Assembly: GCA_001247695.2 (NCBI GenBank)
Contig: LGRX02035108.1
Location: forward strand, 1 to 64,000
Source: Cymbomonas tetramitiformis
Lineage: Eukaryota > Chlorophyta > Pyramimonadophyceae > Pyramimonadales > Pyramimonadaceae
Length of the DNA: 64,000 nucleotides
Direction of reading: 5' to 3'
Shown here: positions 1,775 through 51,402 of the stretch, piece by piece
Numbering within the stretch: the stretch's first letter is position 1
Layout: the number at the start of each line of letters is the position of its first letter
Translations under genes and position numbers: made by a program
The notes under the pieces: generated by a model
What the model saw: only the letters and a program-made list of their open reading frames with translations
What the model was told of the DNA's origin: nothing
Database searches by the model: none

Positions 1775-1961
1775 CCGAACGCTTCTTCAGTGATATGCAG
1801 ATGACCATGCCAGAGGCCGACAGGGGAGCTCCAGTAGCCTACCGCCTACGCCTCCCTCCTCACTGGCGGATACACGACGTGTTCGCTCAACACCGCCTCA
1901 AACCGTACACCAGCGGTCAAGCGCTTTCGCCGCACGCGATCACCTAGCAGTACCTGAAGAG

Positions 1962-3059
1962 GTGGTAGTGGACGGTCAGAAGGAAGCACATGTTGAGCGC
2001 ATCCTTGCACGCCGAGTACGGTCTGTTCGAGGAAAAGAGGTGGAAGAATGGAAAGTTCGCTGGACTGGCTACTCCAAAGCTCATGACCAATGGAGGACGC
2101 GTGACAAACTCGAACGCGGAGGTCCACTTCAACAACTTCGTGAATTTGAACAAGCGAGACTGCGCATGGAAGCACAAGTTCGCGACGAAGCCACTCGGCG
2201 ACGTGAGCAACGTGGCCGTCACTCTGCTCAAGCTGGGATGACACTGGCTCACCTCATCACTAATCCCTGCGATGAGCTGGACCAGCTCGAACAGATGGAA
2301 CAGGATACCCCTCTGCCGTGGGAACGTCAAGAACGCACAGAGGATGGGTCGTTGGCAATGGTGACAGAGCTACTGGCGATCCAGACGGAAGCAACCCGCA
2401 TGCCCAGAATTCTTGTACTTTTCAGTGGTACCGGATCGGTGGAAAGAGAATTCCTAAATTGCTTCCCCTCCGCTTCCGTGGTGACCCTCGACTCCGAACA
2501 CATCTGGCATCCCACACACGTGCAAGACATCCTACAGTGGGACTACAAACAATACCCGCCGGGATTCTTTGATGGCGTTTGGGCCAGTCCCCCCTGCAGA
2601 CAGTACAGTCAAGCGCGCACCACTGGAGGACCCCCTGATCTTCCCCAGGCTGACAAAATCGTACGACGAGCATTGCAGATCATTGACTACTTGGAGCCAA
2701 AACATTGGTTCATGGAGAACCCCAGAGGTCGCTTCCCCAACGCGCTGCGGCTTCGCCCCATGATGCGTCAACTTCCTCCCCCGCTGGTGTGTACCTACTG
2801 CATGTACGGCACGCAGTACATGAAGCCCACCTGCATATGGACGAACTCAGCACCACCCACGCCCCTGCTACGCTGTACTGCTTCGACACCGTGTGCGTGC
2901 AGATGGGCAACCGGTGCTCATCCAGAGACTGCTCAGCTGGGACCTCATCCGCAGCAGACTGGAGCGGGCCAATCCGCGAGCGTATATCCCGTGCCAGCGC
3001 CCCTGCTGCGACAACTTTTCCGACATTTACGCCTCCGCAAGACTGAAGACCCGCTTTAG
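1962..3059 (+). CDS. Chromodomain fused to C5-cytosine DNA methyltransferase
   Basis: The first 70 residues form a chromodomain (HVERILARR, then WKVRWTGYS, then the acidic and basic tail). This domain steers integration of chromoviruses to marked chromatin. After a charged linker, residues from about 147 form a C5 DNA methyltransferase: SAM-binding motif FSGTGSVE, catalytic motif SPPCRQYS with the expected Pro-Cys, motif ENPRGR, a YGTQYMKPT strand, and a C-terminal VPAPLLRQLF helix like that of DCM-type enzymes. All main motifs sit in one frame, so this domain may still be intact even though the upstream integrase tail is frameshifted. Retrotransposon-borne cytosine methyltransferases are known from dinoflagellates and charophytes. 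The phage-like DCM type seen here, in the same polyprotein as an adenine-type domain, is unusual. Confidence 0.8.
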   Translation: MVVDGQKEAHVERILARRVRSVRGKEVEEWKVRWTGYSKAHDQWRTRDKLERGGPLQQLREFEQARLRMEAQVRDEATRRREQRGRHSAQAGMTLAHLITNPCDELDQLEQMEQDTPLPWERQERTEDGSLAMVTELLAIQTEATRMPRILVLFSGTGSVEREFLNCFPSASVVTLDSEHIWHPTHVQDILQWDYKQYPPGFFDGVWASPPCRQYSQARTTGGPPDLPQADKIVRRALQIIDYLEPKHWFMENPRGRFPNALRLRPMMRQLPPPLVCTYCMYGTQYMKPTCIWTNSAPPTPLLRCTASTPCACRWATGAHPETAQLGPHPQQTGAGQSASVYPVPAPLLRQLFRHLRLRKTEDPL

Positions 3060-6149: not shown

Positions 6150-7893
6150 TCAAGCCGTTCCGTGCCGTTTTTCCTTGAGGATTCCCCACTGATCAGGCGC
6201 CTTTTCGTCAGGTTGCCAGTCAGGGCTTTTGGGGATGCACATAAAACCCTGCGCACTTTCGAGATTCTCATAGTAGGGCCTTTTCCGAAGATTCTGCCGA
6301 GTTTCCTGAACCTTCCACCTTCCGTATATACCTAAAATTTTTCCCCCGTAAACAACCCGCGCGCCCAAACTCCGCCAACCCGCACACCCGAGACCTCAGC
6401 AGCCTGGCCACCACGACGCCCGCCACGACCTTGCGCTGTTCATAATCGCGACAAGTCCCGTTGCGGTTCCCCTCCGTCACGATGTACCCCGGCATTGTCT
6501 TGTACACCTGTGATCCTTCCCCCCCTTTCCCTCCCTTTCAGAAACGTACCAAAAAAGCAAAAATAAAAGGGTGCCTTCAAAGCAACAAGTGTTACATTGA
6601 TCATACCGGATGCTTCAACGCCTTCCAGCCCGCCTCCAAAGCTCGAAGGGCTTCACTGTCGCCTAAGGCACACACAATGGTGTCTCCGTCCACCTTCCCC
6701 AGATCGGCGTATTTATGAACCTCAGACATGCCATCGTTGTTCGCGCACAGCTCGTCCACCTTGACTGCGAACGCATCCCAATCCACCTTCGTGTTGTACC
6801 CGGTCTTGCTCTCATGGCCCCACGGAACATCCGTGATGACCGCCGCCACACAAAACTTATCTTCCGCCGCGTTGTGCGTGATGACGTCCATGGCCCCGAG
6901 AGCTTCGCCCAAGTACAGCTGCAACAGCGGGATGCCTTGGGAGTTCATGGCAACCGATGTCAACACCAACAACTTCTCAGAATCGTCGTGTCCGTGTTGA
7001 TGGATTAACTCCAAAATGTACTCCACCTTCTCATCCTTCACCTTCGTGCCCCGCGTCGTCTTCTTGTTCTTCACCGGTACCACCTTCGGCACCTCCACGG
7101 ACACAATGTTGTGCACATGATGCCGTACACCAGGCTTCAACGCCTCCTCATTCATCTTCAAGAACTGCCCAATTTCAATGCTCTCCTTCACCGGTGCCTT
7201 CTGCTGCGTTCCATTTCGGAGCGTTCCGCCTGCCATCTTCCATTGTCGCAACCCTTCGTAGTCCGGGTTCCCTCGCGACACCCCGACCCAAGGCTTCATC
7301 CATTCCGCACAGGGGGCCGGGCCGTCCTCCATGTCATGCTCATCCTTCTGTTTCTGTTCATCCAACTCACGCCGCTCCTTGTCGCAAATCCAAGCCGCGT
7401 AAGCGGCATCCTCCTCCTCAAAGGCCTGTAACTCTTGACGCAGCTTCCCCATGCCCGCCCTCTTCTTACTTAGAGCCTGTTTCTGCTTCTTTCCTCTTGG
7501 GATATGTCGCCCCGCGTCCTCCCCCGCAAACCAATCCGCCACTTCCTGTCTCTTCCGCTTCCGATCTTCACGTGTTTCACGATCCTCCTCCGACTCCTTT
7601 TCAAAGTCAAACTTTGCTTCCTCCTCCTCATCGTCCTCCTCTTCCTCTTCGTTCTCCTCCTCATCCTTCTCCTCACCATCTTCCTCACCATCCGGTTCCT
7701 CACCATCTTCCTTACCCTTGTCTACCTCCTCACCCCCTTCGCCTTCCTCGTCATCAACATCCCCACCCGACGCACCTTCCTGCTTCTCTTCCTCTTCCTC
7801 GTCAACATCCCCACCCGTATCACCAGCAGCAACTTCCGCAAGGGTCTTGACGCCACTCTCCTGAGCCTCTGCAGCAATCTCCTCCCACGGCAA
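6150..7893 (-). CDS. Beta-class DNA methyltransferase-like gene, spliced, 5' and 3' ends unclear
   Basis: The main exon runs 7893 to 6607. It encodes a very acidic Glu/Asp tract, a basic KKQKQALSKKR patch, and a C-terminal module with ITDVPWG in the position of a DPPW/DPPY methyltransferase motif IV. It ends at donor GTATGA (intron 6606-6508, acceptor CACAG). The next exon (from 6507) continues in phase with VYKTMPGYIV and NRNGTCRDYEQ, like the segment after motif IV in bacterial ParB-linked methyltransferases. A further stretch to about 6150 (PYYENLESAQG) looks coding but needs another splice. I found no GSGTT-like motif I downstream, so the gene may be truncated. No ATG precedes the acidic region in frame: a stop from the fold-back element lies just upstream, so the true first exon is missing or is joined from the ParB-like gene. 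Confidence 0.6.
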
Positions 7894-7895
7894 AA

Positions 7896-9916
7896 GGTTA
7901 TTTCTAGATTAATTTTGGGGCGAAAACTAGATTAAGAATGACAGTGCCTTATTCTAGATTAATTTTGGGTGTGTCATGTCGCAGTCGCATGTCTTCCCGC
8001 TCGATTGTCATCACCACCAAATCACCACCACCAAACCGGACGCATGGTACTCTATTGTCTATATGGTAAAGCTAAACGTTATTGGACACGAAGTGGGAAC
8101 TGATTCCGCGCGATCGAGATGTCATCAGACCTGAGACAGGTCGTCATCGTCATTTCGCCGGATCCGGGGTGCCATGCCATGCCACCGCTGCGAGGTGCAC
8201 ATGGTAAAGCTGCGAACGGTCAAAGGCAAAGGGGAAGGCAAAGGGTTTAAGATTTAGCGGCAGTAGGAATAGTTTTCAGAAGCATATGAAAAGTATTCTA
8301 GTGCTTCTGAAAACTATTCCTACTTCTTCTATATCCTAAACCCTTTGCCTTGCCTTTTACTGCTGCACGCGACCGGCAAGCATCTTTGAAACTTCCGAGT
8401 TTCAAAGATGCGTTTTGTATTTTGGGTGCACCCTAAAATTACAAAACAGCCGAGCGCTTCCCGTTTGTGCGGGATATTCACATTTATTCCATGGCATATT
8501 TCATATGAAATATACACATAAGCACGAAGGCATCGGCCACGCATCTTTGAAACTAACGAGTTTCAAAGATGCGTTTTTGTCATTTGGGTGCGCATACCCA
8601 AATAACAAATCAGCCGAGCGCTTCCCGTTGGCGTGGGGTATCCAACGCTTGAATGTTGAATATTCATTATAATATGAGTTAGCATGCGAGGTTGCAAAGG
8701 CATCGGGACAGAATCTACGAAACTGTCCTATGCCTTTGCCTTTGGGTTTGGGTTCGAACGTACCCAAACCCAAAGATGGCAAACAGCCGAGGGCTTCCCG
8801 TGCGTCCTAGCGCACGAAACTTGGCAAAAATACTGCCAAGATACATATCTTTAAGTTACCTGAAGCTCAAGGCTTCAAGTTACTTGTGCGCGAAACGCGC
8901 AATTTATTTCTAAGGCAGATGTTTTGGGTTTGGGTTCGAACGTGACACCCAAACCCAAAGATGCCAAACAGCCGAGGGCTTCCCGTGCGTCCTAGAGCAC
9001 GAAACTTGGCACAAATACTGCCAAGATACATATCTTTAAGTTACTTGAAGCTCAAGGCTTCAAGTTACTTGTGCGCGAAACGCGCAATTTGTTTCTAAGG
9101 CAGATGTTTTGGGTTTGGGTTCGAACGTGACACCCAAAGATGCCAAACAGCCGAGGGCTTCCCGTGCGTCCTAGAGCACGAAGCTTGGCACAAATACTGC
9201 CAAGGGATATATCTTTAAGTTACCTGAAGCTCAAGGCTTCAAGTTACTTGTGCGCCCAACGCGCAATTTATTTCTAAGGCAGATGTTTTGGGTTCGGGTT
9301 TGGGTTCGAACCCAAACCCAAACCCAAAGATGCCAAGCAGCCGAGGGTTTCCCCTGCGTGTGCATGTGTGTTAATTAATTCATATGAATACATATGAATA
9401 TCCCGCACAAACGGGAAGCGCTCGGCTGTTTTGTAATTTTAGGGTGCACCCAAAATACAAAACGCATCTTTGAAACTCGGAAGTTTCAAAGATGCTTGCC
9501 GGTCGCGTGCAGCAGTAAAAGGCAAGGCAAAGGGTTTAGGATATAGAAGAAGTAGGAATAGTTTTCAGAAGCACTAGAATACTTTCCATATGCTTCTGAA
9601 AACTATTCCTACTGCCGCTAAATCTTAAACCCTTTGCCTTTCCCTTTGCCTTTGACCTTCCGTTCGCAGTTTTACCATGTGCACCTCGGAGCGGTGGCAC
9701 CTCGGATCCGGCGAAATGACGATGACGATGACGACCTGTCTCAGGTCTGATGACATCTCGATCGCGCGGAATCAGTTCCCACTTCGTGCCCAATAAGTAT
9801 AACGTTTACCCTCTATATGACATACGCGGACGACATGTAACGTGTCGTTTAATTCGAAAGTAGGAACTATCATTTTTAATCTAGTTTTCGCCCCAAAGTT
9901 AATCCGGAATAAACCC
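7896..9916. mobile_element. Fold-back element between the ParB-like and methyltransferase genes
   Basis: The ends are inverted repeats of about 50 bp (7896-7947 against 9863-9916, sharing TTTTGGGGCGAAAACTAG, with TTAA at each border). Further in, arms of about 400 bp (roughly 8078-8480 against 9390-9805) are near-perfect inverted copies and contain smaller hairpins such as GCATCTTTGAAAC and its complement. The centre holds a 182-bp tandem repeat. No transposase is present. A TTAA border would fit piggyBac- or Kolobok-type targeting, but the similarity runs a few bases beyond TTAA, so the exact ends are uncertain. The right arm overlaps the last codons and stop of the ParB-like gene. Confidence 0.75.
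8766..9312. repeat. Three 182-bp direct repeats inside the fold-back
   Basis: The units begin near 8766, 8948 and 9131 with CCAAACAGCCGAGGGCTTCC and end with GTTTGGGTTCGAACG. Each contains two self-complementary segments (TTGGCACAAATACTGCCAAG and GCGCGAAACGCGC). Degenerate relatives of the same unit occur at 35.8-36.4 kb. Confidence 0.85.
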
Positions 9917-12173
9917 CGAGCCCTCCTCCCACTCAACCAGCTCGTTGTGCTTCTTCAACAAGTCCTGCACGACTTTCGGTTCGACATCCCGGTTCAGGCG
10001 AGCCAAGTTACTTGTCTTGGAGCCAGTGGCGTCGAAGAAAGTACCATCGTGCCTATAAACAAAAGTTTAACACCCATCACCTTTCCGCATGAAAAAATAG
10101 TTCAAGGTTTTAACCAAACCGTGGTAGGTGGACTTACTTTCCGGCGCTCAAGTCCTCCAAGAACTTGGACGCCTCGTTCGATTTTTTCGCCTTCCCCTTG
10201 CCGCTTTGAAGCTCTAGCTGTGTGCGGACTTCTTGACGAAGCAGCACAAACGAGCACAAGTCCGTGAACGCGCGTGTGGTTCCGATGAAGCCCAGAGTCG
10301 CGCATTGCTTCTTCTTCTTGAGGTGGAGCTCGCCACTCTCGTCCTTCACGGAGAACTTGACGTTCTCGTTCACCTTGAGGAAAACCTGAGACATGTGTTT
10401 GTCTTTAGGCGGGATGGTTGAATATAACATAATAAAATAAAGTCCGGCATCGGCCGTACCTGATATCTCTGTGTCGGATTAAGACGCTGGAACTCCTTGT
10501 TGTCGTACAAGGAGTTGAAGCCGTAGGGGGAATCCTTCCCCAAAGCTTCGCAGTTCTCGCGAAGCAAGGCCTCCAGCCGCTCGTCGGGCCCGATCACCTT
10601 TTCGTGGATGTGGGCTATCCTCTTGAAGAACATCAACGAATATAAAGAAGGGTCGATGTGAGAGAATAAAACAACCAGCTTCCCTGGTTTGGCCACGGCC
10701 TTGTCAATGGAGGACATCAGCCATTTGAAGGAGGTGTAATCGTCGAAAAAAGTCTTTTTCTTGGACCCCTTCTCGTTCTGCACGATGCGTGAGAGTGCGA
10801 GGCATGTGACCTCCTCCTTCGTGATGTCCTCCGACACCACGATGACATTGCACTCCAGAAACCTTTTGTCCCGGGCCTCCAGTTTTTTCCCGCCTACCAC
10901 GGCGCCATCTTGGAAGGCACGAGTGAAAAACTCGTGCCTTCCATGTCCATCGATGGCGATGTAACTCTTACTGAAAACAGAAACAAACATAGCACGCCAT
11001 TAAATACGACAAAGAACACGGTTCCAGGTTTAGAGAAACTATTTATATTAAAAAATACAAGTTGTTGTTTACTCTAGCTAAAGCTACCACTGACTGTCCA
11101 ACATCCACTGAGGACATTGCTTCCTACGTCTTTTGGCATCACGCTCAGCTTTGTTTTTATTCTGCAAGCGCCTCTTTGCTACTGCTACATCCGGAACGTC
11201 GTACCAGCCACGAAACTTGCTGGAAACTACTAGCTCATTTTCTGAGCTTTCTTCATACAAAAACAACACTCGCTCCAACATGTCTTGTTCTTCCATCGAG
11301 CACGAGTCACACAGGGAGGCAGCAGACCTGCAGCATGCGAAGCAAATAAACAGCAAGAAAGTCACCATGCAAAACCAAGAAGAGCTCAAGCACTAACCTC
11401 TTTTGGATGAAGTTTAGAAAAGAGTTCATCGATGAACGCTTTTTAAAAAACACTGCTAAAAAAACAAGTGTTTTGACCGGTTTAAAGAAAAGCGTTCATC
11501 GATGAACTCTTTCTTTATTTTGTTGCTGAAGCTTGAGTTTTTTAAACTGTTTTTAAGAAAAGCGTTCATCGATGAGCGCTTTCCTTGCTTTCCCTATTTT
11601 TTTCCTGAGAAAAAAGCTGAATCACACAGAAATATCGCAGCTTTTGCAACTCCAAAGCGCAAAGTTTTAAGAAAAATACAAGGAAAACTAAGAAAAGCGC
11701 TCATCGATGGACGCTTTCTTAAAAACAGTTTAAAAAACTCAAGCTTCAGCAACAAAATAAAGAAAGCGTTCATCGATGAACACTTTTCTTTAAACCGGTC
11801 AAAACACTTGTTTCTTTAGCAGTGTTTTTTAAAAAGCGTTCATCGATGAACTCTTTTCTACACTTGTCTTCTCTTCCTTTTGTCAGCGCAGTTCTTGAAG
11901 AAGGTTTAGTGAAACTTACCCGTGGGCCTTCGGATCTTCTTTTTTTGCGCGGCGCCAGATCATCGTTTGGGAAAGGTCGATGCCGTTTTTCTCAACGGAC
12001 TTCTCCACGTTGAGACCGTTGTGGTTGTGGCCTCTTGGGTTGTCGCTGAAAGAGCAGTCGGCGAGTTTAAGCACCTTCTGCTCAACAAAGCGTTGCTCCA
12101 TGACGTCAGCGTATACCAATCTTTCGGTGTTGGCATCCCCGGACTTTTTTGTGCTTCCTTTCTTTGGAGGCAT
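9899..12173 (-). CDS. ParB-like protein, five exons, 468 aa
   Basis: Exons are 12173-11920, 11327-11088, 10970-10460, 10385-10138 and 10052-9899. All four introns are GT-AG (592, 117, 74 and 85 bp), the phases match at every joint, and the total is 1407 nt ending in TAA. Exon 1 holds a ParB box-I-like region: basic N terminus, then ADCSFSDNPRG with the NPR signature and a following helix ending NGIDLSQ. Exon 3 opens with YIAIDGHGRHEFF, matching the GHxR box of ParB/Srx-type nucleotide-binding folds. About 100 residues rich in Lys/Arg separate the two boxes, longer than in bacterial ParB. The C-terminal half has no motif I know. In bacteria and phages this fold partners with beta-class DNA methyltransferases, and the next gene on this strand is one. 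The family call is by motif only. Confidence 0.68.
11405..11868. mobile_element. Fold-back element filling intron 1 of the ParB-like gene
   Basis: The left and right halves are inverted copies (TAGAAAAGAGTTCATCGATG at one edge, its complement at the other). Six palindromes centred on CATCGATG (core GCGTTCATCGATGAACGC) lie symmetrically near 11431, 11502, 11570, 11707, 11775 and 11847. The element makes up most of the 592-bp intron and leaves short flanks with the splice sites. Confidence 0.8.
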
Positions 12174-12610
12174 GTTTGCTTGTTTCTTTTGACTTTAAAT
12201 CTTTGCGCTTTTTCTTTGGCGGCTTGAGTTCTTTACTAGCTCTCAACTGTCTTAAGGTTTTCTTCGACTTCTCTTTCCGACACACGTCGACTCCTTTGGT
12301 CAGTGTCGTTCTCGACTCGATATTTTTCGCCTCGATATTTTTTTCCCCCAAATTTTCAAAGCGTCTCCTCGAGTCGAATATTTTCAAGGTCTCGCCTCGA
12401 CTCGATTTTTTCCTTCGCCTTCTCTTTCCGACACAGCTAGACTCGTTTGGTCGGTGTCGTTCTCGACTCGACTCGCAAATTTCCCAGCCGTCGCCTCGAC
12501 TCGATTTTATTTTGGCGTCGCCACGACTAGAGTTTTTTAAGGCCTCCCCTCGACTCGACACTTTCTCTTTGGGAGTGCATTTTTTGTACCGACTTCCTAA
12601 GGCTAATGCC
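12174..12610. promoter_or_regulatory. Divergent intergenic region with CTCGACTCGA-rich duplications
   Basis: This lies between the start of the ParB-like gene (minus) and the next gene (plus), so it should hold both promoters. It contains two copies of a roughly 110-130 bp unit (around 12262 and 12418) with CTTCTCTTTCCGACACA and repeated CTCGACTCGA words. The repeated words are the only candidate regulatory sites I see. Confidence 0.45.
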
Positions 12611-13500
12611 ATGTCCACTCAATTTGTTACTTTTCGCTGCCTTGAAACCGGGGATGTCGTTCGTGAAATTCCCATTGTTTGGCATCTTGGAGACCCTTTT
12701 GTGACTAGCGACACACTTTGCAATGTTTTTAGTCTTGACAAGAAAGAAGATCTTTCCGTCACCTCCGAGTTCGATGACTCCGTCGCTTGCTCTTTGGACC
12801 TGTTTCCCGTTCACTCTGGCTTCTTGCACAATGTGTACGGTACTCCTACCGACGACAACATGCCAATATTGGTAAGCGACAGCGAAAGCGATGACAGCGA
12901 CGATGAAGAAGACATTGTTTACACCGGCGAGTGCAAGACTCCCCGGTTCTCACCAAACACGAAGCCCAAGCCCACGGAGTCCGTCGCTTCGACAAACCTT
13001 TCCAAGTCCGACTCGACTTCCAGTCGCGCCTCTTCTTTTAAGTGGCCCGCAGATTGCAAACGTGTGAACAAGGTCCCCTTCGACGTCGATGGCAATGTCA
13101 CTTTTGGTCACCACATGTCCTCACCTCTTCCTAAACCAACCGGGAAGGGCGGTTTACCGCTGAACAAACTTGACTTCCATGTCACGAACCGTTCTTGGGC
13201 CCACGCCTGCGCCACAACTTGGGCGGAGGTAACCCGACAAGATGCCGTCAAGGACTGCAACTCTCAGGTTCGACTTCAAAACTGCCTTGGAGAAAAACTT
13301 TGCAGGAATACGGAGTGCTCTTTCTTTAAAACCCACGACAAAGAGTTCGTTCAAAAAAGTTTTCAACGACGTGGCAAACGCTCCGCTTCTGCTTTCCTCG
13401 GAGTTGAGGTATTTTAATCCCAAGGTTTTCCCGTACCCTTTCACCACTTTTCCAATAAGACCTTACGCTTTTCTTTTCTTCTTTTAGACTGGAGAGGTGG
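12611..13500 (+). CDS. Acidic protein with Cys motif, divergent from the ParB-like gene; 3' truncated
   Basis: The ATG at 12611 opens 269 codons. The protein has an N-terminal structured segment, an acidic run (SDSESDDSDDEED), a Ser/Pro linker, then a Cys cluster (CLGEKLCRNTECSFF). A good donor (GTATTT after GAG at about 13408) and an acceptor with a long pyrimidine tract (CTTCTTTTAG at 13487) suggest splicing to TGEVVLVHES, after which a palindromic insertion cuts the reading. The Cys cluster resembles that of the next gene (CGGALSCENDACVVF), so the two may be paralogues, possibly DNA-binding parts of mobile-element proteins. I do not recognise the family. Confidence 0.45.
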
Positions 13501-13599: not shown

Positions 13600-13948
13600 A
13601 GATTTCGCAAATTAGGGCGCCCATACTTAAGCCCATACTTAAGGAGTGCAACGCGTCGGCCCGCGTCGACGCCTACGTTTTCCAATACTTAAGAAAAATT
13701 AATTTTTTTCTTCATACTTAAGGAATATACACTAACTCCCCCCTCCCCCCCTAACCAGGGACTAATGGGGTATAACCCAGTCGTCTGCGAGTGGCAAACG
13801 TGCGTCAGAGACACGAACCTAACCACAGAGCTTGACAATCGTATACGATTGTCAAACGTGTTTCATATTTTTTTTCATATTTTTCTCATGCCTATATAGG
13901 GTATTATTTTCATAAAATAATTCATTTTTCATGGTACCTTAGGAAACC
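13600..13948 (+). promoter_or_regulatory. AT-rich upstream region of the following gene
   Basis: It holds repeated CCATACTTAAG words (13621-13730) and a small hairpin around 13690-13725. A GCCTATATAGGG segment at about 13890 could serve as a TATA element 50-60 bp before the ATG at 13949. No coding signal. Confidence 0.35.
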
Positions 13949-15150
13949 ATGCCGGCTTCCCTGCGATACGGTAATCATGCTTTGGATGTCCCGCATACCG
14001 TGCCAATATCTCTTCCGTTACTACAGGCCTTGTTTCCAACCCTTACCGACACCCCGATGCTTCTTCACCTGCGCAGCGCAGAAGACGTGCAACCTGTCGA
14101 ACTCGGTACCGTGTTCCCTGACGGAGCTGTCGTACTTGTGATCGGTGGTGTCAGTTCAACCCCCGGATCTAGTGACGTGAAGACCGGTTGTGTGAATGCT
14201 GAAACAGCCACACACGAATCTTCCCAAGCATCAGCTTCTCCGCCTCGCCCTGAAATAAAGCATGAAAATTTAGTTTTTGACTTAACCGAATCGCCTCCAC
14301 CGCCAAAAGAACCGTATGAATCTATGAAATCCTCCAGCGCTGGACAAGAACCAAAGCTCAAGCACAAGGTCAAATCGGAATATACAGCCTATGCCGGACC
14401 AGCTATTCCGATAGATTTTTCTCAGCATGTTGATTTGTCCCAAGACGTAGCGCCAGGTCAGCCTGGCGAGCTTGTCGATGAACTGCCAGTACCTCTCCTT
14501 CCGGGGGTAGTTTACAAGCCACGTGCTGGACATTTCTCTCCTTGGAGAGATTTCTTAAAATACGATCCGCAGACCTGGATGCGTTCTGGGAACAAAAGGC
14601 GTATCAGAGGCCGTCTTACTAGAACTACTCGATGTGGTGGGGCTTTATCCTGCGAGAACGATGCATGTGTAGTGTTTCGTAAAACGGGTGATCGTAACCG
14701 TTTCCAATTCACCGGTACCTTTAAGAACCGCAATCTGGCGTGCGCCCTTTGCAACGCTGCGCCTACTCATTCCGGCAATTGTCCGTTTGAAGTAACCATC
14801 CAAGAAGACTCCGATTGGAACATCCTCCAGCTGTCTACTAGCTCCCTTGGACACAACCATTCCGTGTTGTCCACCGACAACCCCAGCGTGGGTGAGCTAA
14901 AAGCAGCTAAGACTAGGGCTGAGGAGGTTCTAAACACCGGCGGAGTTCGAAACGTATGCCAGGTGAAAAGGACTTTACTCGCGGAAACCGTCTTTCCAAA
15001 AGACTCTTCTTTTGACCCTAGCCAGCTACCAGACATCGCGAGGAAAATGAACGTGATTGATAAGGCAGTGGACCAGAATCTCGTGCGAGGTCGTCGACAG
15101 GATGAGGGCATGCAAGCCGTTTCCCAATGGGCTGCTACTGTGCCTGTCAA
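13949..15150 (+). CDS. Zinc-motif protein, interrupted by a non-LTR element
   Basis: The ATG at 13949 follows an AT-rich leader. After an N-terminal domain of about 70 residues and a Pro/Ser/acidic linker, residues 200-320 contain two cysteine-histidine clusters: CGGALSCENDACVVF, then CALCNAAPTHSGNCPF followed by SLGHNHS. The spacing recalls the zinc-binding N-terminal domains (FLYWCH/WRKY-GCM1 type) of Mutator-like transposases. About 30 residues after the last recognisable helix the frame runs into antisense sequence of the adjoining element, so the C-terminal catalytic part is lost or displaced. I infer a broken mobile-element transposase or a domesticated relative. Confidence 0.5.
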
Positions 15151-15194
15151 AACTCCTCGGGCGTGCTCCCATCGAGGACACCGCTGCCAGGGAC

Positions 15195-16382
15195 TCACAC
15201 CAGCTCGGACTGATATCGCCGTCCTGCATTATGCAGTCCATGCTGATTTTTCGCCGGTGGCTGCCATTGCCCCTTGGTGGCAGTCATCCTTTCTTTTACT
15301 GGCTTTTGTATCGACTTCCTGTAGGCGTCGGCCGCCGCCCTATTGGTGATCCCCCATTTGCTAACCGCTTCATTGAAGTGGGTGGGCCAGTGTCCCCCTG
15401 GGCATGTTTTTTGGAAGTGCATCCATGCTTTGGTGGCCAGCAGGACCCATGTCCCACAGCTGTAGTGGTCCTGTGCGTTTTGGTTGCCTATGTTCATGAG
15501 TTCGACGGTTGTCTCCTTGCCTAGTGCCTTGGCCAGGTGTTCTGCCCAGGTGGTCATTTCGGCTATCAGTCTTTTGGTGTTGAGAAGGGTTGCCTTGGTT
15601 TTCCCACTCGAGGAGTCATATACCCACAGTTTCAGTTTGTTGTTTTCTTTGTCCGGGCCTGCTAATACCACTCTCCAGTGTTTGCCATCGCACACCGGTA
15701 TGCAGAAGCTTCTAGAGTCCTTGAGCATCTGTAGCGCTTTCGCTGTGTGTGGTTTGCTGTTGTCTCCTGGTTGGAGGGTTTCTCTCATCGTGGCTATTAC
15801 CAGGGGTGGCAATGGGTTGTCTTCGTACATTGCGTGGGCGTGTCTAATTTGGTGTGCGTTAAGCCTACCTTTCATTTCGAACAGCCCTTTCGTGGTTGTG
15901 TCGTACGGGTATGTTTCCGTGTGGGTTTGGCTCCCCCCGCCCATCATGTTTCGTTCCCGGTTTGCGGCTTGTCTTTTTACCCTTTGTTTTATCATCCTCA
16001 TTAGTCGTTTGTCCTTCGTTGGGGTGCCTTCCCTTATTGTGGTTACCGCATGCTCTGGTTTCCTCGTTCTGACAAGCATGGGTCTGCCATTACGGTTAAT
16101 CAGTGTGAGTAGTTTGTATCCGTAGGGTGGCTGGGGGTTCCATGTTGCTGCATTTTTTGCTGTTGTTCGCTTCCTTCTGTACCTGCGACTGCTCGTTCTC
16201 CCGTTGTGTTCATTTCGCCCCCCCTCTCTCTTGCGAGCCCGTGAAGTCCCTTCCTGTCTGAGCGTTACCACCAGCATGACGAGCAGCGGGGTTATGGTGA
16301 CCGCAATTTTTTGTATCCGTCCGGTCACTTCCCCTCGTGGCGAGTACGTGTTCGTGTAAAAAAAACTGTTGTGTTTCAGCAT
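15195..16382 (-). CDS. Ulp1-like (C48) cysteine protease domain, copy B
   Basis: The 395-codon frame has a basic N-terminal region (about residues 50-150) and then the protease fold. CDGKHWRVVLAG holds the catalytic His, LWVYDS the Asp, and QNAQDHYSCGTWV the Gln and nucleophilic Cys in the order and spacing of Ulp1/SENP enzymes. Such proteases cleave SUMO-type linkages and are often captured by eukaryotic transposons. All four catalytic positions are present, so the domain may be active. The first Met of the open frame lies in a low-complexity stretch, and the true N terminus probably joins the upstream frame near 16400-16600. Confidence 0.72.
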   Translation of the reverse strand: MLKHNSFFYTNTYSPRGEVTGRIQKIAVTITPLLVMLVVTLRQEGTSRARKREGGRNEHNGRTSSRRYRRKRTTAKNAATWNPQPPYGYKLLTLINRNGRPMLVRTRKPEHAVTTIREGTPTKDKRLMRMIKQRVKRQAANRERNMMGGGSQTHTETYPYDTTTKGLFEMKGRLNAHQIRHAHAMYEDNPLPPLVIATMRETLQPGDNSKPHTAKALQMLKDSRSFCIPVCDGKHWRVVLAGPDKENNKLKLWVYDSSSGKTKATLLNTKRLIAEMTTWAEHLAKALGKETTVELMNIGNQNAQDHYSCGTWVLLATKAWMHFQKTCPGGHWPTHFNEAVSKWGITNRAAADAYRKSIQKPVKERMTATKGQWQPPAKNQHGLHNAGRRYQSELV

Positions 16383-16627
16383 TTTTTTCGAAGTTCTTCA
16401 TTTTTACGTAGAGCATTTTAGGAATTCACTTGTGGTCGAGTGTTCCCGCACCTCTGCGTGCCCCCTATCCCTGTCTTTCCTGCTGAAGAGCATGGGAGTG
16501 CGTTCCATGGCCTTCAGCCATCTGGCCTTCGAGTCCTCCTTGATCCTGTCCAGAGGTCATGCAGTGTTCGCCGCATGGTACTCCGTGATCGTGATATCAG
16601 TAAGCCCTCGGTCCCGCCATGTTTGTC

Positions 16628-18815
16628 TCATGGCCCTTGCGGCCTCTGGGGTGCGGTCTTCCTTGGGAACCTCACTCCCCGCGTTCCCCCACCCTTGTCT
16701 GCGCGACATGCTCGGAATTTCCCATTTCCGCGTCGGGTGGGGGTCGAAGATCGCATGTCATACTGACTGGCGGTATCCATCGCGTTTTTAGCCGCTGCCA
16801 TGTCGGACACTGCATTCATCGTGTGGATCCCCGGGTTAGCCGGCCTGAGATTTCGCAGCGTGTGGTATTTACAGACTGTGCAGTACGTACTGCGTTGTAG
16901 GGCTTTCCCGATAACGTCCGCTGCCCCCTCCGGGTCCGGGCAGAATTTTTGCCAGCCCTCCGCGTTGGCAACAACTAGGATTCTCACTCCCCAGTTGCTG
17001 TAGTCCTTCTTCGTGACTCCTGATACTGTGGTGCCCCCCAGTGGTCTGGGGGAAGGAATGTGAAACTTTTCCTTGGGATTACTGTACTCCGAACTCATGT
17101 ATTCTGGTGTCCCCATATCTTCTGCAGTAGGCCTTGGCTGGTGTCCTCGTCCAGGCCGGGTAAATCCCCACCCCCAGTACCGGGGTTTTCGCCATGGTGG
17201 ACATCAGAGCCTCCTGGAGAGCTCTATCTAGGTCCGCCGCTGTGTACTCCGGGTTGAACTCAAAGGCACCCAGCTCCCCCCAGTGGGTGTCCCACGCAGA
17301 CCCTTTGGACCCGAAAATCTTGTCCCTGTCGAACTTGGAGCAGTATGTCACCGTGTGACTGTGAACGTTAAGCGGCGACGCGAATACCTCCGCCTGGATT
17401 CCAAAGGCCTCCTGGAGCGCCTGCATAATTTCTGGAGGGAGCGTCCAGTGATTCTGCAGTGCAGTTTTCTTGACCTCCTCCTCCTCTTCGCAGGAGTACC
17501 TTTTGAGTAGGAGGACTATCTCTGTGGCGAACCCGTGGACCGTGCCCAGCTGCGGCTCCCGCTCCTCGAAGGATCGCCGTCGCTCCTCTCCCGCCGGTGT
17601 GTGGATCTGATCTGTGCTGTCCGTGCCCGTTGCGGCCACATATCTGTCGTAGAGTCTGTCGAGTACCCCTTCTTTGAGAGCACCCACCATCTTGCCACGC
17701 TCGTCGTGTGCGAACACGTGGTGCCTGCCTTCTTCCGTCGTGAGCGTGCACCTGCCCGAGGGTGCGGCGTCCCAGTCTGGGTTGAAGGGCTCGGTGTCTA
17801 TGTTAAGCTTGATGACTCCCGGCCAGTAGTGGGCGTGCTTCGTAGGAGTCCCCGACAGTGGTTCCCGATCCGTGGGGCGCCGAGCCTGTTGATCTTCTCT
17901 CTCCCTGTTATGGAACGAGTCTGCCGCTCGCTCGGCCTGGCTCGGGTCCATCCCCTCTACTCCTCCGGTCAGCAGGGTGTCTTCCGCGACCCATGCCTCC
18001 CCTTGTGGGTGTACTGGCCCGAGCAGGTACTCCTTGCCTCCCCGGTGTGTCCTGACCGCCAGGATCGTGGTGCGCGCGGACGCCCTGACGGTCCGGGGCT
18101 CCGCACCCATTTCCGCAAGCGCTTCGGGGTCATGGGCAACCGTTGGGCCAGTGCCGACCGAGAGCTCCATGGTGTCAATCCTCCACCACCTGCTTCTGCT
18201 TCGGTAGTCGTTTATTGGAGGGTGTGTCGCCCAAACCACCTTTTCGCTGCTTACGAGGTGCGTGGTCATTAGCCTCACTGCATCTCTTGGGAACCCGCTT
18301 GTGGCTGCATGTCGGAATATCTCTCCCGTCCTGACGTCCCCTTTGGTCACTTGGGCGAGGACCCATTCCCCCAGCGTCACGACTTGCGTCGCGGTCTCCT
18401 TCCACGTCGTGCCTTTGCCGTCGTCCAGGCGAATCCCTGCCAGCGAGCGGGTTCCTGGTTCCCCCTGAGTCGCCTCACGTGGGGCTGCTCCTCGTGCGGG
18501 AGGGCCCGTTCTGGGTCCGTTCTCCTCTTTCGGGGGAATGTGTAGTGTCGGCCTGGTCCTTTTCGTGCCGACCCGCGGGTCCTCCGGGGCGCGCCCGAAG
18601 ATCCTTGGCACTACTCCGGCCTGGGTCTGCATATTCGGGTCATCCTCTCCGACCTGCACCTCGTGTGCCACCATTGGCCCCGCGCCGGCCACCGGGGTTT
18701 CGTCGCCTCCTTCCTCGAAGGAGATCGGGTCATGAGAGTCCCCCTCTCCGTGGAACACGTGGTGGCGTTCTCGTTGTTCCAGTTCTCCTATGCGCGCCAC
18801 GATTGGGCCCCGCAT
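16628..18815 (-). pseudogene. PCIF1-like methyltransferase domain in a non-LTR element, frameshifted
   Basis: The first frame (18815-17079) is 578 codons. Its N-terminal half is charged with no motif I know. From about residue 440 it reads EVFASPLNVHSH, then FGSKGSAWD, then GAFEFNPEYT, which lines up with the EAFASPLN, FGSLGSF and FEANPPF sequence of the PCIF1 (cap-adjacent m6A) methyltransferase family. The catalytic NPPF is NPEY here. A strand VLGVGIYPAW follows. The reading then shifts at about 17090 into a second frame (17116-16628) with KEKFHIPSPRPLGG and NWGVRILVVANAEG, matching the expected downstream strands. The altered motif and the frameshift argue against activity. Family assignment is by eye. 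Confidence 0.55.
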
Positions 18816-18824
18816 AGTTTCCCG

Positions 18825-19480
18825 CTACGCCTTGGAGGTCGCCGCCTCTCTGCCCTCAGGGGGTCCGTGCAGTCTGATCCAGGAATCCCATGTTGCCCCT
18901 GTGGCGGACCTGTTCCATTCCTGCCATTTGTCGACCATGTAGCACACCCAGACGCCACATTGGTATCCGTCTCGTTGGTGTGTGACCCCCATGTTGGCAA
19001 CCGTCATGGCAGTCGGCGGCCAGCCTGGCGGCCCTTCCAATTGTCTTAGCGCCGCCAAAAGGCGCTCGTCTCCCCCCCCATAGGGTCGTAGAGGTAGACC
19101 GAGACGCTGGAGTCTTCGTTCCTTCCGAAGAGGAGCACGTTCCAGTGGCTGCCGTCACAAGTCAAGACGAAGGGAAATCCCCCAGCACGGACTTTTTCCA
19201 TCGTGTTGCGCATCTGCGTGTTGTATTGGTCTGATTGCTCGAACGTGATTCCGTTGAGAGCGTCCGCGAGTTTTGTCTGGTGCATCGACACCCACAGTGG
19301 CCAGGTTTGTTGTACAGAGGCTGTGGGTTTCCACCTGTATGGAGCTGAGCCACGCCTCCCTGCCCCTGGTATCCGAAAAGACCCCTTCTGTCATGTGCCT
19401 GGGGAGGTCCTCTCGCCGGGGTTCAGGTCCACTTCTTCCTCCCCCCGTCATGAGCCTGTCTGCTGTGGAATAATCCGCTT
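18825..19480 (-). pseudogene. Ulp1-like protease domain, copy A, frameshifted
   Basis: CDGSHWNVLLFG and VYLYDPMGG (19046-19291 frame) supply the His and Asp of a Ulp1-type protease. HQRDGYQCGVWV (18825-19058 frame) supplies the Gln and Cys. The pieces are in different frames, with shifts near 19270 and 19060. The core resembles copy B at 15.2-16.4 kb, so the element carries two members of the family. Confidence 0.65.
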
Positions 19481-19726
19481 GGTTTTCCCTCATTGCCCTC
19501 CTACAGTCCGTCGCCTCCCTCTCAGCGAGTCTTGCTCCGGCTCTGGCTGCATGTCGCAGATCTGAGAGGGCTTTTTTGGCTTTGGATCGTGCGCCCTTGG
19601 AGTCCAGCACCATGATCCTCTCTCCGGGCTCATTAATCAGGGTGGTTCTGACTCCAATATCATAGCATTTAAAGGCGTCCTCGTGGTCCGCTTCATCTTT
19701 GGCACAATAGCCTGCCGCCAATTGTC

Positions 19727-21390
19727 TTAAGGCGTCCTGACCTGCATGGAGGTCGTGGGAGGGCCTCTTCTCCCCGCGTGCCACAGCGATCTCGGGCCCC
19801 ATTTGGATTGAGTGGGGTGGAAGCCCAATTCCCAGGCGGTTGGTTCCTCCTCGTTGACTGCCTGGGGCTCCACCACCCTTTGGAATCCCAGGGCGTTGTG
19901 GACCTCTTGAAGAGGTACAAACTGAGACTTGAGGGCACGGTTCCTCGGGTTGTCCCAGAATTGCGCGTCGTTGGGCTTGTCGGCAAGCGCCTCGCAGATA
20001 TATGGGTATAGCATGAGCATGAAGGTCCGCATGCGCCCTTGAAACCTGGCTGGGACTTTCGCTTTTGCCTCCCTGAGGCTGCACGCACGGGTGCCCCCCT
20101 GTGCCACATAGAATCCCTCCTCCACGTAAGGGAGTAGGGGCAGCAACGTGGTTAGGCTAAGCGGAATTTCCTCCTGGTCTTTTACTGCGTAGACCTTCAT
20201 GCTCACGTCCCCCGTGTCTTTGTCTACTACCGTCCTGTGTCTGCCTTCGAGCGCACTCGGGAAGGGCTTTCGAACCGCAGTTGCCAGCTTGGAGATAACT
20301 CCGTGTTGGGTGTTGATCAAATCCGCCAGCAGTGGCCCAGATCCGGTGAGCAGGACTTGGTGTTCACGCAACGCCGCGAGTTGCCTGGCGGTGCAGCGCC
20401 TGTCGAGGTCCCCAGCCCTGACTGTGCCTTCCATCTGTCCCTGCCTGCGGTTGTAGTGGTACCTGACTAGCCCCCTTGTGGTGGCGCTGAGTTGGGAGGT
20501 CTGTTTAACGTGAAAGGCCTCACTTTCTCTGAACACCTCCCTCGGCCTCTCCCGAAGGTCCTCTCTGGTGGCCGTGGCCATCTGTAGGGCGCTCGCCACG
20601 CTTTGTGCGTATGTGGCCAGTAGCGGCGTGTGTCCCAGCCCGTAGGAGGTTTTCGGGAGTGCTGTGTAGCAGTTCGCGGTGCCTCTCGACAGTCCGTTAA
20701 GGAGCTTGTACGCCCCACCAATAATCGCGTCCAGGTCCCCGACTTCCTTGGTAGAAAAAATCCCTAGAGGGAGGGCATACCTAAGCTGCCCTATGACTGC
20801 GGAGCGGAGGACCTCCTCCTGCTGCCCGCTCGTCAACGGGGAGTGGAGGAGTGCTTGGATCCTTTCCCTTGCCTGCAGAATAGAGGCTTGTTTCTGTGCG
20901 GTCCAGTCCCCCGAGAGGGCGACTTGCATCCCAAGGTACTTGTAGGGAGTGTCCGGGTGAAGGTATGGGAGCCCATGCCTGCCTACAGTGGGGGTGTGCA
21001 TGGTGATATCTGCGTACGTCTCCTCCGGGATCGGGGAGCCCTTTTCGTCTGTTCCCGTGATCCCGCATTTAGCTTTGTTGACTCGGAGTCCACTCCAGTT
21101 GGAGTAGAGCTCCAGCTTCCTGACCTGCGTCGCCAACTGTACCGCCGATTCAGTGACTAGGGCAAGGTCATCAACATATGCCGCCGAAGAAGTGCGAATT
21201 TGTTTATCCGAGTCCGTGAGGCGGTGTAAGTACCCCTTGTTGCCCGCTTTAACCCCTCTTCCGGTAAGTCGATGTTGACATTATGGTGTTGCCCGCCTTT
21301 TCTTGAATAACTCTCGTGTCCGTAGTCCAATTCGAACTTTAAAGATACCCCCGGAAACGTCTCGGCGAGGCGCATCGCGCCGCACCGTGC
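19727..21390 (-). pseudogene. Reverse transcriptase, C-terminal half and linker
   Basis: The catalytic motif SSAAYVDDLALV lies at about 21150-21190, followed by the thumb-like region (LRVNKAKCGI, then YKYLGMQVAL), as in non-LTR reverse transcriptases. Upstream, ETFPGVSLKF and NVNIDLPEEG continue in another frame to about 21390, where similarity and GC content end. The N-terminal motifs, any endonuclease and ORF1 are missing. Downstream of the thumb the frame continues for 300 residues and shifts near 19800 towards the Ulp1-like domain. Confidence 0.72.
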
Positions 21391-25222: not shown

Positions 25223-26327
25223 TCAGCGTCCGTAGTTCCCGCTTCGCTGCCGAGAGGACCTGCTCCGCCCTGTCTGCAGAGTGCCAGTGTCGGCCCTCTG
25301 GCGGCCTGGCAACCAGCTCCAGTTCCCACTCTTGGAACTTGGTGATGTCAGCGGTGGAAGAGTATCTGCGTACCGTAACGGGGTGCCCAAGAACTCGTAA
25401 GGGAGCCCTAGCCGCAGTGCCCTATCTGCCTCGTCCGTTCTTGAGAAGACGACGATGGCGACGTCCAGCGCGGCCGCCCTGGCTTCCTCCCAGTGTGGCC
25501 TGCCCTTGCCGATGTAAACAATGTTACGGGCTCCCCCCTCAAGCACCACTCCCGCCGAGATGCTGTTGGCAACTTCCGCTACGCCCTGGCCCACCAGCCC
25601 GATGGACTGCAGGATGACCGTGCGGTCTGCCGGGAGCGAGTCCCGGTCTTGCTTCATAGGACACCTGTGCACGTCCCTGGCAACGCTGGCTTTGGGGGTG
25701 CCCACCGCCTCGTGCTTCCAGCGGTCTGCGTTGCCCCACGGGGGTGGCGCCAGAGGTACCGCCGGGGCACACCTCTCGTCCACCAGAGCGATGGCCGCGT
25801 GGAGCGGGTCTGTGAAGGTCGCCCTCAAGATGCCCTGCCACGGGGACGTGACGATGACGTCCCCCTTGGCAGGGCAGCGGCCTGTGTTCCAGAGTCGCTC
25901 CTGGAGCTCTGACAGGGGCAGCTGTTGGAACCTTCTGGTGTCCCCGTCACCTGTGTGAACCAGGCAGTTGTAATCCACAGCCGGGGGCACAGTCATGTTC
26001 CACAGGGTGTCGTACTGTCCCCCTGGCGCGCCTCCCGTGCCGAATATCGTGTGTAGCGGTTCCCCTGCCGGGTGTTCAAAAAGGTCCTGCGCTGTCAGGG
26101 CCCCCGCGGCGGTGGTCTGCCCTGGGTGCACCTGTCCCTGTAGTTTTTCCCCGGCGTCCGCGAGATGAGCCCAGAGCAGCCCTGCCTTAAGCAGCACCGG
26201 GGCCTGTGAGATGTACTCAACCACTTCCGCTGTCAGCGGGAACCGCCCCGTGGGCAGGGGCGCTGCTGGATGGGAAATGTTCCTGTGGTGGTGCGGTGTC
26301 TTGCCCCGAAGCCAGCCGCGGGTCCCG
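25223..26327 (-). pseudogene. Retroelement ORF piece, proximal to the CACTA insertion
   Basis: The frame is open from the insertion border at 26327 to 25223. It includes VVEYISQAPVLL, DVIVTSPWQGIL, VLEGGARNIVYIGKG and DVAIVVFSRTDEADRALRLG. The composition is that of real protein, but I recognise no domain. The insertion of the CACTA-like element interrupts it between codons, and the frame on the far side stays open for at least 40 codons after the 3-bp duplication is removed. Confidence 0.45.
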
Positions 26328-26343
26328 CACTCACAGAAAAATA

Positions 26344-26710
26344 AGGCCTCAGTTCACACTCAATTGAGTGTGAACTGAGGGCAAACTGAGGGTAAACTGA
26401 GTGCGAATCGAGGGTGATCTGAGTGCGATCTGAGTGCGAACTGAGTGCGAACTGAGTGCAGACTGAGTGCGAACTGAGGTGATCTGAGAGTGCGAACTGA
26501 GGGTGATCTGAGTGCGAACTGAGGGTGATCTGAGTGCGAACTGAGGGTGATCTGAGTGCGAACTGAGGGTGATCTGAGTGCGAACTGAGGATGATCTGAG
26601 TGCGAACTGAGCGACTCAGTTCATACTCAGCTTATACTCAGTTCATACTCAGCTTATACTCAGTTCATACTCAGCTTATACTCAGTTCATACTCAGCTTA
26701 TACTCAGCTT
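26344..26710. repeat. Left subterminal array of the CACTA-like element
   Basis: Repeats of GAGTGCGAACTGAGGGTGATCT, then GTTCATACTCAGCTTATACTC. The mirror array is at about 29385-29745. Confidence 0.85.
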
Positions 26711-27613
26711 ATTACACTGCATGAATTCGCGTATTCCCAATTCGCGAATTCCCAATTCGCGAATTCCTACATAATGAATACATATTTGTATATATGCATA
26801 TATATATCTCACATATTTGGCGAAATAAATACTAACCGTTGAGAAACCGCTACTACTAACCGTTTGAGTCAACAATGTTTTTAGTTGGTATGTTCGGATA
26901 AATCTTTGACCAGTCAACGTCTTATCAACTGATATTAACGTTGCGCCCACGCAAGAACCGACCACAAAAGCTGATGATTCATACTGCATTATTTCCTAGC
27001 CGTGTTATTCTTGCACAGCAAACCAAATGAAGTTTCAGATGCAGTGATACATAATAACTATACCGCATGCATGCGAGCATGCAATGGATGGGTAGACAGA
27101 CACCTAGGCACAAGGAATCGCACAACGCAAGGGAACACAATTCAGGCACACGTTGACAATATATATTTCTAATATTACACCTTTTAAAATATTACTCGAA
27201 ATGGTTTTGTGTTTTCTATTCTAGTGCTATTCTTTTGTTTTTGGCCAACCCTAATTGGCAGTATCACATTCATCAACCTGACAGCAACACTATCTATACG
27301 CATGCGACCTCAGCGACATGAGTACATCTCCAGCGGCATCAACGCAGTTGCTCGTTCCAGCGACATCTGCAGTTGCGCAACCCCGACCTAGTTAGCACAA
27401 AATGACATGCAGAACAGAAACGGACCTTATCATGGAAGGCAGCGATAACGCACACACATATAACAATATGAACAAACTCACCTGCGTGCATGGAAGCAGT
27501 GATGCTCTTGGTCGCTCCCACATGCGCGCTGCAGCCGAAATACACACTGCGTTGTTAGTATAAAAGGCATAAGGAATTATGCAACAGTATCACAGGAAAC
27601 TCAAAAACTCAGC

Positions 27614-27680
27614 GGGGTGAGTTGGCTTCGAACCAACAACTCACAGCCCGTTGGGCTGGAGAGATGCGCACTATCACCCC
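27614..27680 (-). tRNA. tRNA-like sequence, shortened D arm
   Basis: GGGGTGA pairs with TCACCCC (7-bp acceptor). A T arm GTTGG-TTCGAAG-CCAAC carries a perfect B box, and CAGC/GCTG forms an anticodon-type stem with AAC (Val) in the loop. The D-arm region is about five bases too short, and U33 is replaced by C. It is probably a tRNA-derived promoter or a decayed tRNA, not a working gene. Confidence 0.4.
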
Positions 27681-27839
27681 CTTCTAGGCATGCAATAAAC
27701 AACATGTGGACGCATGCATGCGAGCAAGCGCAACAAAACAGACACTCATACACACTACGAAAACCCTCACCGACAATAAAATGCGAGCTACTCGTGCAAA
27801 ATATAATCACAACATGAACAGCAACGAAAAATACAAGCA

Positions 27840-28260
27840 GACCAGTGCAGCATACTGCTTTGGGCTGGTCAGCGGTTGTCTTTGTGATGGCGGCTCGGAG
27901 TGGCTTCTATCTTCTATCTACACGTGAAGAGCTACAGCACCATGACACTGCATCTACAGGCTGCGAGCGATGAATTCTGGAATTCTGGATCGATCTTCGT
28001 GCCAGTAGCCTGTGCCAAGCTGCCGACCCATTTTTATTCGATCGGTATATTTGTTTTCATCTGACGGCTGACACTCCAGTGATAGACGATATCTAAATAT
28101 CGAATCGAAATATCATTCGACCATCACCAACCGCGGCCTGTAGCGAGTAGCCGTTCACGTGTAGATAGACACAAGATAGAAGTGAAGATAACATCTTCCA
28201 GACCATGAGAGGCTGTCACAAAAGTTATCTATCCCAGGCCGCCAACCGCAGCAGAGCAGT
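27840..28260. other. Unpaired centre of the CACTA-like palindrome
   Basis: This is the only part without a clear inverted partner on the other arm, although CTATCTACACGTGAA at about 27910 and its complement at about 28155 form one more nested pair. No ORF of note. Confidence 0.5.
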
Positions 28261-28433
28261 GTGAAGCACTGACCTGCTTATAGTGCTTTTTGTAGCCTTT
28301 CATTTTTGTCATTATCTGTTGCACGGGTAGCTCGTTTGCGAGGGTTGAGTGTTATTTGCGAGGGTATTATTTGCTGTGCTGGCTCGCATGCGTGCGTCTG
28401 CATGTTGCTTATTCTTTGTATATCTAGTGGAAA

Positions 28434-28502
28434 GGGGTGATATGTGTTGCATCTCGCCAGACCACCGGTCTAGGAGTTGTTGGTTCAAAGCCAACTCACC
28501 CC
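28434..28502 (+). tRNA. Second tRNA-like sequence, mirror of the first
   Basis: It has the same acceptor (GGGGTGA/TCACCCC) and T arm, but a diverged anticodon region (AGACCACCGGTCT) and TTCAAAG in the T loop. It faces the other copy across the centre of the CACTA-like palindrome. Confidence 0.4.
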
Positions 28503-29384
28503 GCTGAGATTTTGAGTTTCTTGTTTTATATGATGTGATGATGTGTATTTATTTTGTGCTAACAACGCCGTATGTATTTCGGCTGCAGCGCGCATGTGGG
28601 AGCGACCAAGAGCATCACTGCTTCCATGCACGCAGGTGAGTTTGTTCATATTGTTATATGTGTGTGCGTTGTCGCTGCCTTCCATGATAAGGTCCGTTTC
28701 TGTTCTGCATATCATTTTGTGCTAACTAGGTCGGGGTTGCGCAACTGCAGATGTCGCTGGAACGAGCAACTGCGTTGATGCCGCTGGAGATGTTCTCATG
28801 TCGCTGAGGTCGCATGCGTATAGATAGTGTTGCTGTCAGGTTGATGAATGTGATACTGCCAACTAGGGTTGGCCAAAAACAAAAGAATAGCACTAGAATA
28901 GAAAACACAAAACCATTTCGAGTAATATTTTAAAAGGTGTATTAGAAATATATATTGTCAACGTGTGCCTGAATTGTGTTCCCTTGCGTTGTGCGATTCC
29001 TTGTGCCTAGGTGTCTGTCTACCCATCCATTGCATGCTCGCATGCATGCGGTATAGTTATTATGTATCACTGCATCTGAAACTTCATTTGGTTTGCTGTG
29101 CAAGAATAACACGGCTAGGAAATAATGCAGTATGAATCATCAGCTTTTGTGGTCGGTTCTTGCGTGGGCGCAACGTTAATATCAGTTGATAAGACGTTGA
29201 CTGGTCAAAGATTTATCCGAACATACCAACTAAAAACATTGTTGACTCAAACGGTTAGTAGTAGCGGTTTCTCAACGGTTAGTATTTATTTCGCCAAATA
29301 TGTGAGATATATATATGCATATATACAAATATGTATTCATTATGTAGGAATTCGCGAATTGGGAATACGCGAATTCATGCAGTG

Positions 29385-49130: not shown

Positions 49131-49282
49131 CGGGAGGCGATTTTAATGCCAGGTTTTTTCTCTCGAAAATCGCCAAACGAAGAAGCCGAAAGCGATTTTG
49201 TATAATTATAGAGATGCGCCCTCGCTGGATAGGGCTTCAGCAAATCACGAAATAGAATTATACAGCGTGACATAAATGGTAC

Positions 49283-51199: not shown

Positions 51200-51402
51200 A
51201 TACCTTTATATACATTGCAGTCGAGCTCATCAGGACCACATCAGCATCCAGGCGATCGTTCCAATATGCAGCTATCAGCTGCCCGAAACATGACACCGTC
51301 AGATCTTCGTGACACGGATGTGCAGTATGCAACTGGAGTATTATCGTCACGTCGCGTCGTGCACCCAACCCATCGTCACAACAGGTTACACACCTTCCAC
51401 CA

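Follow-up and report, generated by a model that had tools for sequence, protein, structure and literature searches.

Within the 64,000 nucleotides of Cymbomonas tetramitiformis DNA considered here (positions 1 to 64,000 of contig LGRX02035108.1, hereafter the window), we have analyzed a minus-strand coding region that is probably one gene, carried as cargo by a large DNA transposon in this pyramimonadalean green alga. As we read it, the gene would encode a ParB-like N-terminus joined by an acidic linker to a C-terminal part that resembles the front half of a beta-class N4/N6 DNA methyltransferase; this copy has since been interrupted. An earlier, sequence-only reading had placed two neighboring genes here, a ParB-like gene of five exons and, next to it, a separate gene for a DNA methyltransferase; comparison with related predicted proteins suggests that these are most likely the two halves of one algal gene.

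The gene model was corrected with the Cymbomonas tetramitiformis predicted protein CYMTET_55958 (P0001). Residues 1–479 of the corrected model are identical to P0001 in 428 of 485 alignment columns and remain colinear with it through the point of interruption, where the window reads VEWEE/IAAEAQESG and P0001 reads VEWEE/TAVEAQESG (the slash marks the join). A second relative, P0003 (282 of 480 columns identical), spans, in a single frame, everything from the end of the ParB-like part through the acidic linker to the part containing ITDVPWG; a third, P0004, is identical in 153 of 392 columns. Since P0001 and P0003 both cross the interruption in one frame, we take the two sides to be one gene, and the separate next gene of the sequence-only reading falls away. 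The corrected reading frame comprises at least 884 codons and runs from a ParB-like part of 381 amino acids through a very acidic linker into a methyltransferase-like part, which opens with QLYLGEAL...VITDVPWG and resembles the start of a beta-class methyltransferase. The protein search that yielded P0003 and P0004 scored only the 7998 candidates that had the most words in common with the query, and relatives may have been missed.

In P0001 the sequence PKAHG-KRYIAIDGHGRHEFF splices exon 1 straight to what had been called exon 3, and the stretch proposed as exon 2 (11327–11088 as rebuilt) is therefore an intron in that relative. The same join keeps the frame in the window, and the match to P0002, which apparently reads through introns, starts at the acceptor where P0001 joins exon 3. 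Third-position GC (GC3) of the rejected exon is 0.52, against 0.72 in the other ParB exons. At the opposite end of the proposed first gene, its last seven residues (GSGFIPD) fall within the inserted element. The five-exon, 468-codon gene does not survive these comparisons; its 468 codons most likely represent the five rebuilt exons read on to a stop.

The interruption is a 2,035-bp foldback element (7888–9922) bounded on both sides by an exact copy of TGGGAGGAG (9923–9931 and 7879–7887), that is, by a 9-bp duplication. Its ends can be aligned as inverted copies of one another, and inside it lie nested inverted repeats with arms of 277, 94, and 67 nucleotides. Such a duplication with long inverted ends would presumably suit a Mutator-like element; in this copy of the gene, then, a second mobile element has inserted. 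When the window is compared with itself, pieces of 35782–36424 prove to be 73–86% alike to the interior of the 2,035-bp element and are perhaps a second member of its family. We consider it improbable that the element is spliced out as an introner and that this copy still yields the full-length protein, lengthened by 11 residues. Within 30 nucleotides of both element ends there is just one GT-AG pair; it does keep the frame open, and introners that bring both splice sites and add codons are described for Aureococcus in the available part of one report (PMC9860276). An open GT-AG pair is also found, however, in 863 of 2000 shuffled end pairs, and we have rejected it as positive evidence for an introner; moreover, the families in that part of the report have median lengths of 30–654 nucleotides (PMC9860276), and an element of 2,035 bp is far longer.

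The three motifs singled out in the sequence-only reading are present on the minus strand: NPR in exon 12173–11920, IDGHGRHEF in exon 10970–10460, and ITDVPWG in open reading frame (ORF) 7908–6604. For comparison we assembled a phage set of ParB-methyltransferase fusions and ParB-like proteins, comprising 13 stretches picked from 610 matching records; 12 were aligned (L002, which has an internal stop, was left out). Of the 12, 11 served for the ParB half and 10 served for the methyltransferase half. A pattern set post hoc finds box I and box II (GxxR) of the ParB-CTPase fold in order and spacing, a first pattern having missed the window and matched only 4 of the 12 references. The later two-box pattern fits the spliced protein, P0001, and 9 of the 12 references; it is expected 0.01 times per window in shuffled six-frame segments, and of 20000 shuffled versions of the spliced protein a single one contained it. 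An hhalign comparison with the phage profile places NPR on NPR, DGHGR on DGHLR, and DVPW on DPPY. The score of the ParB-like part in this comparison was reached by 1 of 200 column-shuffled queries (2 of 300 in a sub-domain test) and by none of 81 decoys cut from other ORFs of the window.

The methyltransferase name is weaker than the ParB-like one. Motif IV of beta-class N4/N6 methyltransferases is (D/N/S)PP(Y/F/W). At this position the window and P0003 have DVPW and P0004 has DLPW, the first P being replaced in all three. A DVPWG-type pattern, expected 0.005 times per window, was found once, and 5 of the 12 phage references match it. The hhalign score of the methyltransferase-like part was reached by none of 200 column shuffles, and by none of 300 in the sub-domain test.

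At the donor of the DVPWG exon, the GT would encode a V shared by all three sequences (the window ORF, P0003, and P0004), with divergence after it. The possible next exon, which starts VYKTMPGY and is covered by no relative, has a GC3 of 0.80 over nucleotides 1–90, 0.70 over nucleotides 91–180, and 0.38 from nucleotide 151; it looks coding for about 150 nucleotides. Support for this last exon from the phage alignment was rejected: 686 of 1000 shuffles scored as high, and global hhalign put the exon at the wrong end of the phage domain. The S-adenosylmethionine (AdoMet)-binding motif I (DPFxGSG-like) was not found downstream of motif IV, nor was any [DN]x[FLCM]xGxG in minus-strand segments of at least 20 residues below position 7000, a result that covers the window only, P0003 and P0004 stopping at the same intron as the window exon. 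The best six-frame match to the phage C-terminal profile had an E value of 0.47. Either the 3′ end of the gene has been lost in this copy or exons have been missed. Because the linker exon carries a foldback element and our search turned up no AdoMet-binding motif, this copy is most likely dead.

The neighboring gene is divergent from the fused one (Table 1). Its Cys motif (CLGEKLCRNTECSFF) follows a pattern shared with ORF 13943–15346 (CGGALSCENDACVVF), and by eye the two ORFs possibly resemble transposase N-termini; Pfam gives no accepted match for either, and we found nothing in the window that continues the 12611 ORF. Between the divergent genes lies a cluster of CTCGACTCGA repeats, of which five are exact, some overlap, and two are the same site on both strands. 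Allowing at most one mismatch, the window contains 11 copies against an expected 3.07 (standard deviation 1.80), and none of 100 shuffles reached 11. From the divergent orientation and the repeat cluster between the genes, it is plausible that the Cys-motif gene is a third component of the system.

Table 1. Features of the fused gene, its insertions, and its divergent neighbor (window coordinates)
Feature	Position	Strand	Basis or remark
Exon 1: start codon, NPR box (ParB box I-like)	11920..12173	-	Colinear with P0001 N-terminus; donor GTAAGT
Intron 1 (949 nucleotides), holding the rejected exon 2 and a foldback element	10971..11919	-	P0001 exon join; P0002 acceptor
Palindromic foldback element within intron 1; arm length 151 nucleotides (97% complementary)	11410..11865		Inverted-repeat search, self-comparison
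Exon 2 of the sequence-only reading, rebuilt; no exon in relative	11088..11327	-	Missing from P0001; GC3 0.52
Second coding exon: IDGHGRHEF box (ParB box II-like, GxxR type)	10460..10970	-	Rebuilt model, P0001 alignment
Third coding exon, ParB-like part	10138..10385	-	Rebuilt model, P0001 alignment
Fourth coding exon, 5′ piece; ends in first TGGGAGGAG (9923–9931)	9923..10052	-	P0001 alignment
Inserted foldback element, 2,035 bp, similar inverted ends, splits exon	7888..9922		Insert not present in P0001 or P0003
Fourth exon, 3′ piece from second TGGGAGGAG (7879–7887): acidic linker and methyltransferase-like part with ITDVPWG	6607..7887	-	P0003/P0004 alignment
Possible next exon, starts VYKTMPGYIV, end uncertain	6360..6507	-	Acceptor CACAG, in frame
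CTCGACTCGA repeat cluster between divergent genes	12311..12558	+	Holds 9 of the window's 11 copies (up to one mismatch)
Divergent ORF from ATG with Cys motif (CLGEKLCRNTECSFF)	12611..13417	+	Pfam: nothing accepted (SAD_SRA at E 0.044 falls below cut-off)

Several results weigh against the identity we propose. Comparison of the window with itself located no transposon ends around the gene pair, and Pfam found no transposase domain beside it. Pfam, NCBIfam, and PHROGs returned no ParB or methyltransferase match for P0001–P0004 at E values up to 10, and a search of PDB sequences with P0001 likewise gave no match to either family. AlphaFold models were unusable, with a mean predicted local distance difference test score of 46.1 for P0003 (three-row alignment) and 32.8 for P0001 (two-row). 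Against the phage methyltransferase half the ParB-like profile reaches 23.3, slightly more than its 21.9 against the phage ParB half. For the methyltransferase-like part, the best of 200 shuffles comes near the real score (27.8 versus 28.25), and decoys from the window score as high in 13 of 82 cases when the single sequence is used and in 2 of 82 with the three-row profile (one of these two lies in ORF 1794–3056, which has a C5 DNA methylase match). When a phage methyltransferase hidden Markov model was run over six frames, the DVPWG ORF ranked 299th of 1047 rows (E 180), and the top row (E 0.092) was the exon 1 ORF. The missing motif I belongs with these points.

Other searches were also negative. 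Pfam found no ParB or methyltransferase match in the corrected gene pieces, and Pfam, PHROGs, and NCBIfam gave nothing useful for the wrongly spliced first protein or its two parts. Foldseek, given the low-confidence P0003 model, produced no match at an E value of 0.001 or better among 179; a protein search with a 975-residue model produced none at 0.001 among the 7975 candidates scored. Viral contigs (four queries) and genome contigs (one query) held no relative, tblastn against phages gave nothing for P0003 and one chance match (E 3) for P0001, and Rfam had no match at gathering thresholds. We regard the ParB-like and methyltransferase names as the best reading of these sequences and not as demonstrated fact.

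How far do other explanations fare better? The gene might encode a conserved algal protein of unrelated fold, in which the words NPR, GHGR, and DVPW resemble ParB and methyltransferase motifs by chance. The want of any match in the profile libraries or the PDB, the modest or poor scores, and the missing motif I would suit such a protein, but the order of the motifs is that of the published domains, their registers are those seen in the phage fusions, shuffles seldom reach the scores, and the architecture has been reported independently for algal transposons (PMC12477816, available part); we think chance resemblance rather unlikely. A host nuclear gene hit by a transposon, as opposed to transposon cargo, is in our view unlikely. 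It accords with our having identified neither transposon ends nor a transposase domain beside the gene. Set against it are a published class in which the same domain pair is transposon cargo (PMC12477816, same part), the divergence of the relatives P0001, P0003, and P0004 (though their genomes and copy numbers are not known), and the element-like look of the divergent Cys-motif gene and the repeat cluster. Two adjacent genes, one ParB-like and one for a DNA methyltransferase, as first proposed, are very hard to defend: the frames do lie 2 kb apart in the window and the first runs into a stop codon, but that gap is the element with its flanking duplication, and the relatives read across it.

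If the gene is indeed transposon cargo, we infer the following mode of action. The ParB-like part would recognize a sequence carried by its own transposon, the CTCGACTCGA cluster perhaps, using a nucleotide as cofactor; the methyltransferase part would then mark the transposon DNA, and the mark might protect the transposon from host silencing or set its activity. In this copy a foldback element has since landed in the linker exon. A more elaborate version, which we put forward as doubtful, makes the CTCGACTCGA cluster a parS-like loading site of a eukaryotic transposon, from which the ParB-like part would slide as a nucleotide-gated clamp and carry the fused methyltransferase along. In this way the element would set an epigenetic mark on itself. 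Should it be true that ParB-methyltransferase cargo binds and marks its own transposons, as is suggested in the part of PMC12477816 at hand, some eukaryotic mobile elements would be using a phage-type tool on the epigenetic ground of the host. In the window, a pyramimonadalean green alga supplies a further example, with a corrected gene structure and a candidate binding site in the CTCGACTCGA cluster.

The window contains further element-like features. From 15195 to 21280 on the minus strand, ORFs running in one direction include one with a reverse-transcriptase match (RVT_1, E 1.7e-05, below cut-off), one with a PCIF1_WW match (E 1.4e-20), and one that is Ulp1-protease-like by eye. PCIF1 is an adenosine methyltransferase, and this region is possibly a retroelement carrying an adenine methyltransferase. 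Within 48289–55844, long ORFs at 49271–51196 (reverse-transcriptase-like by eye) and 51313–53559 lie between inverted repeats of about 540 nucleotides (97%), adjoined by a 2.4-kb palindrome at 53413–55844 (97.5%); these ORFs gave no Pfam polymerase match. Two 1.4-kb copies, 93.6% identical, form an inverted pair at 26327–29761, and 44163–45584 is made up of direct repeats in tandem, spaced at about 250 bp, with 79–95% likeness between pairs. ORF 1794–3056 on the plus strand matches the Pfam families Chromo (E 2.6e-07) and C-5 DNA_methylase (E 2.7e-05), both above cut-off, and recalls the retrotransposons with cytosine methyltransferases described in the available part of PMC5890265. The GC content of the window (49.8%) and its wealth of repeats fit the figures for the Cymbomonas genome, 51.4% GC and 68.3% interspersed repeats, in the accessible portion of PMC10675990.

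Among known systems, a survey of the ParB-CTPase fold, so far as the available part goes, lists fusions to methyltransferases from phages and archaea and also covers eukaryotes (PMC12704722); the gene described here shares the GxxR box with proteins of this fold but has no detectable library match. Phage ParB-methyltransferase fusions, among them the "putative DNA methylase" of Wolbachia phage WO (L001:15672-16886), have the same order of motifs, N-P-R, D-G-x-x-R, and D-P-P-Y; the phage WO protein differs in its length of 404 amino acids, in being without the long acidic linker, and in having DPFSGSG, which was not found in the window. A further counterpart in description is Sola1-1_Ec32 of Ectocarpus, a 21.5-kb family that encodes, opposite a transposase, an 1104-amino-acid protein with ParB-like and N4/N6 DNA methyltransferase domains (PMC12477816, available part). 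The comparison is one of description, and the window copy differs in being interrupted and in the motif I that was not found. In outline, the gene agrees with this published class of algal transposon cargo and would belong to it; what the sequence-only reading offered as a new system falls within a class already reported in algal transposons (PMC12477816). Its broader idea, an intron-bearing and mobile eukaryotic counterpart of the ParB-methyltransferase pair, agrees in outline with the same part of that source, except that the pair is one fused gene and not two neighbors. Both algae have the fused architecture, which in the window holds at the level of motifs and not of proven folds, and in each the gene runs opposite to its neighbor, which in Ectocarpus is the transposase.

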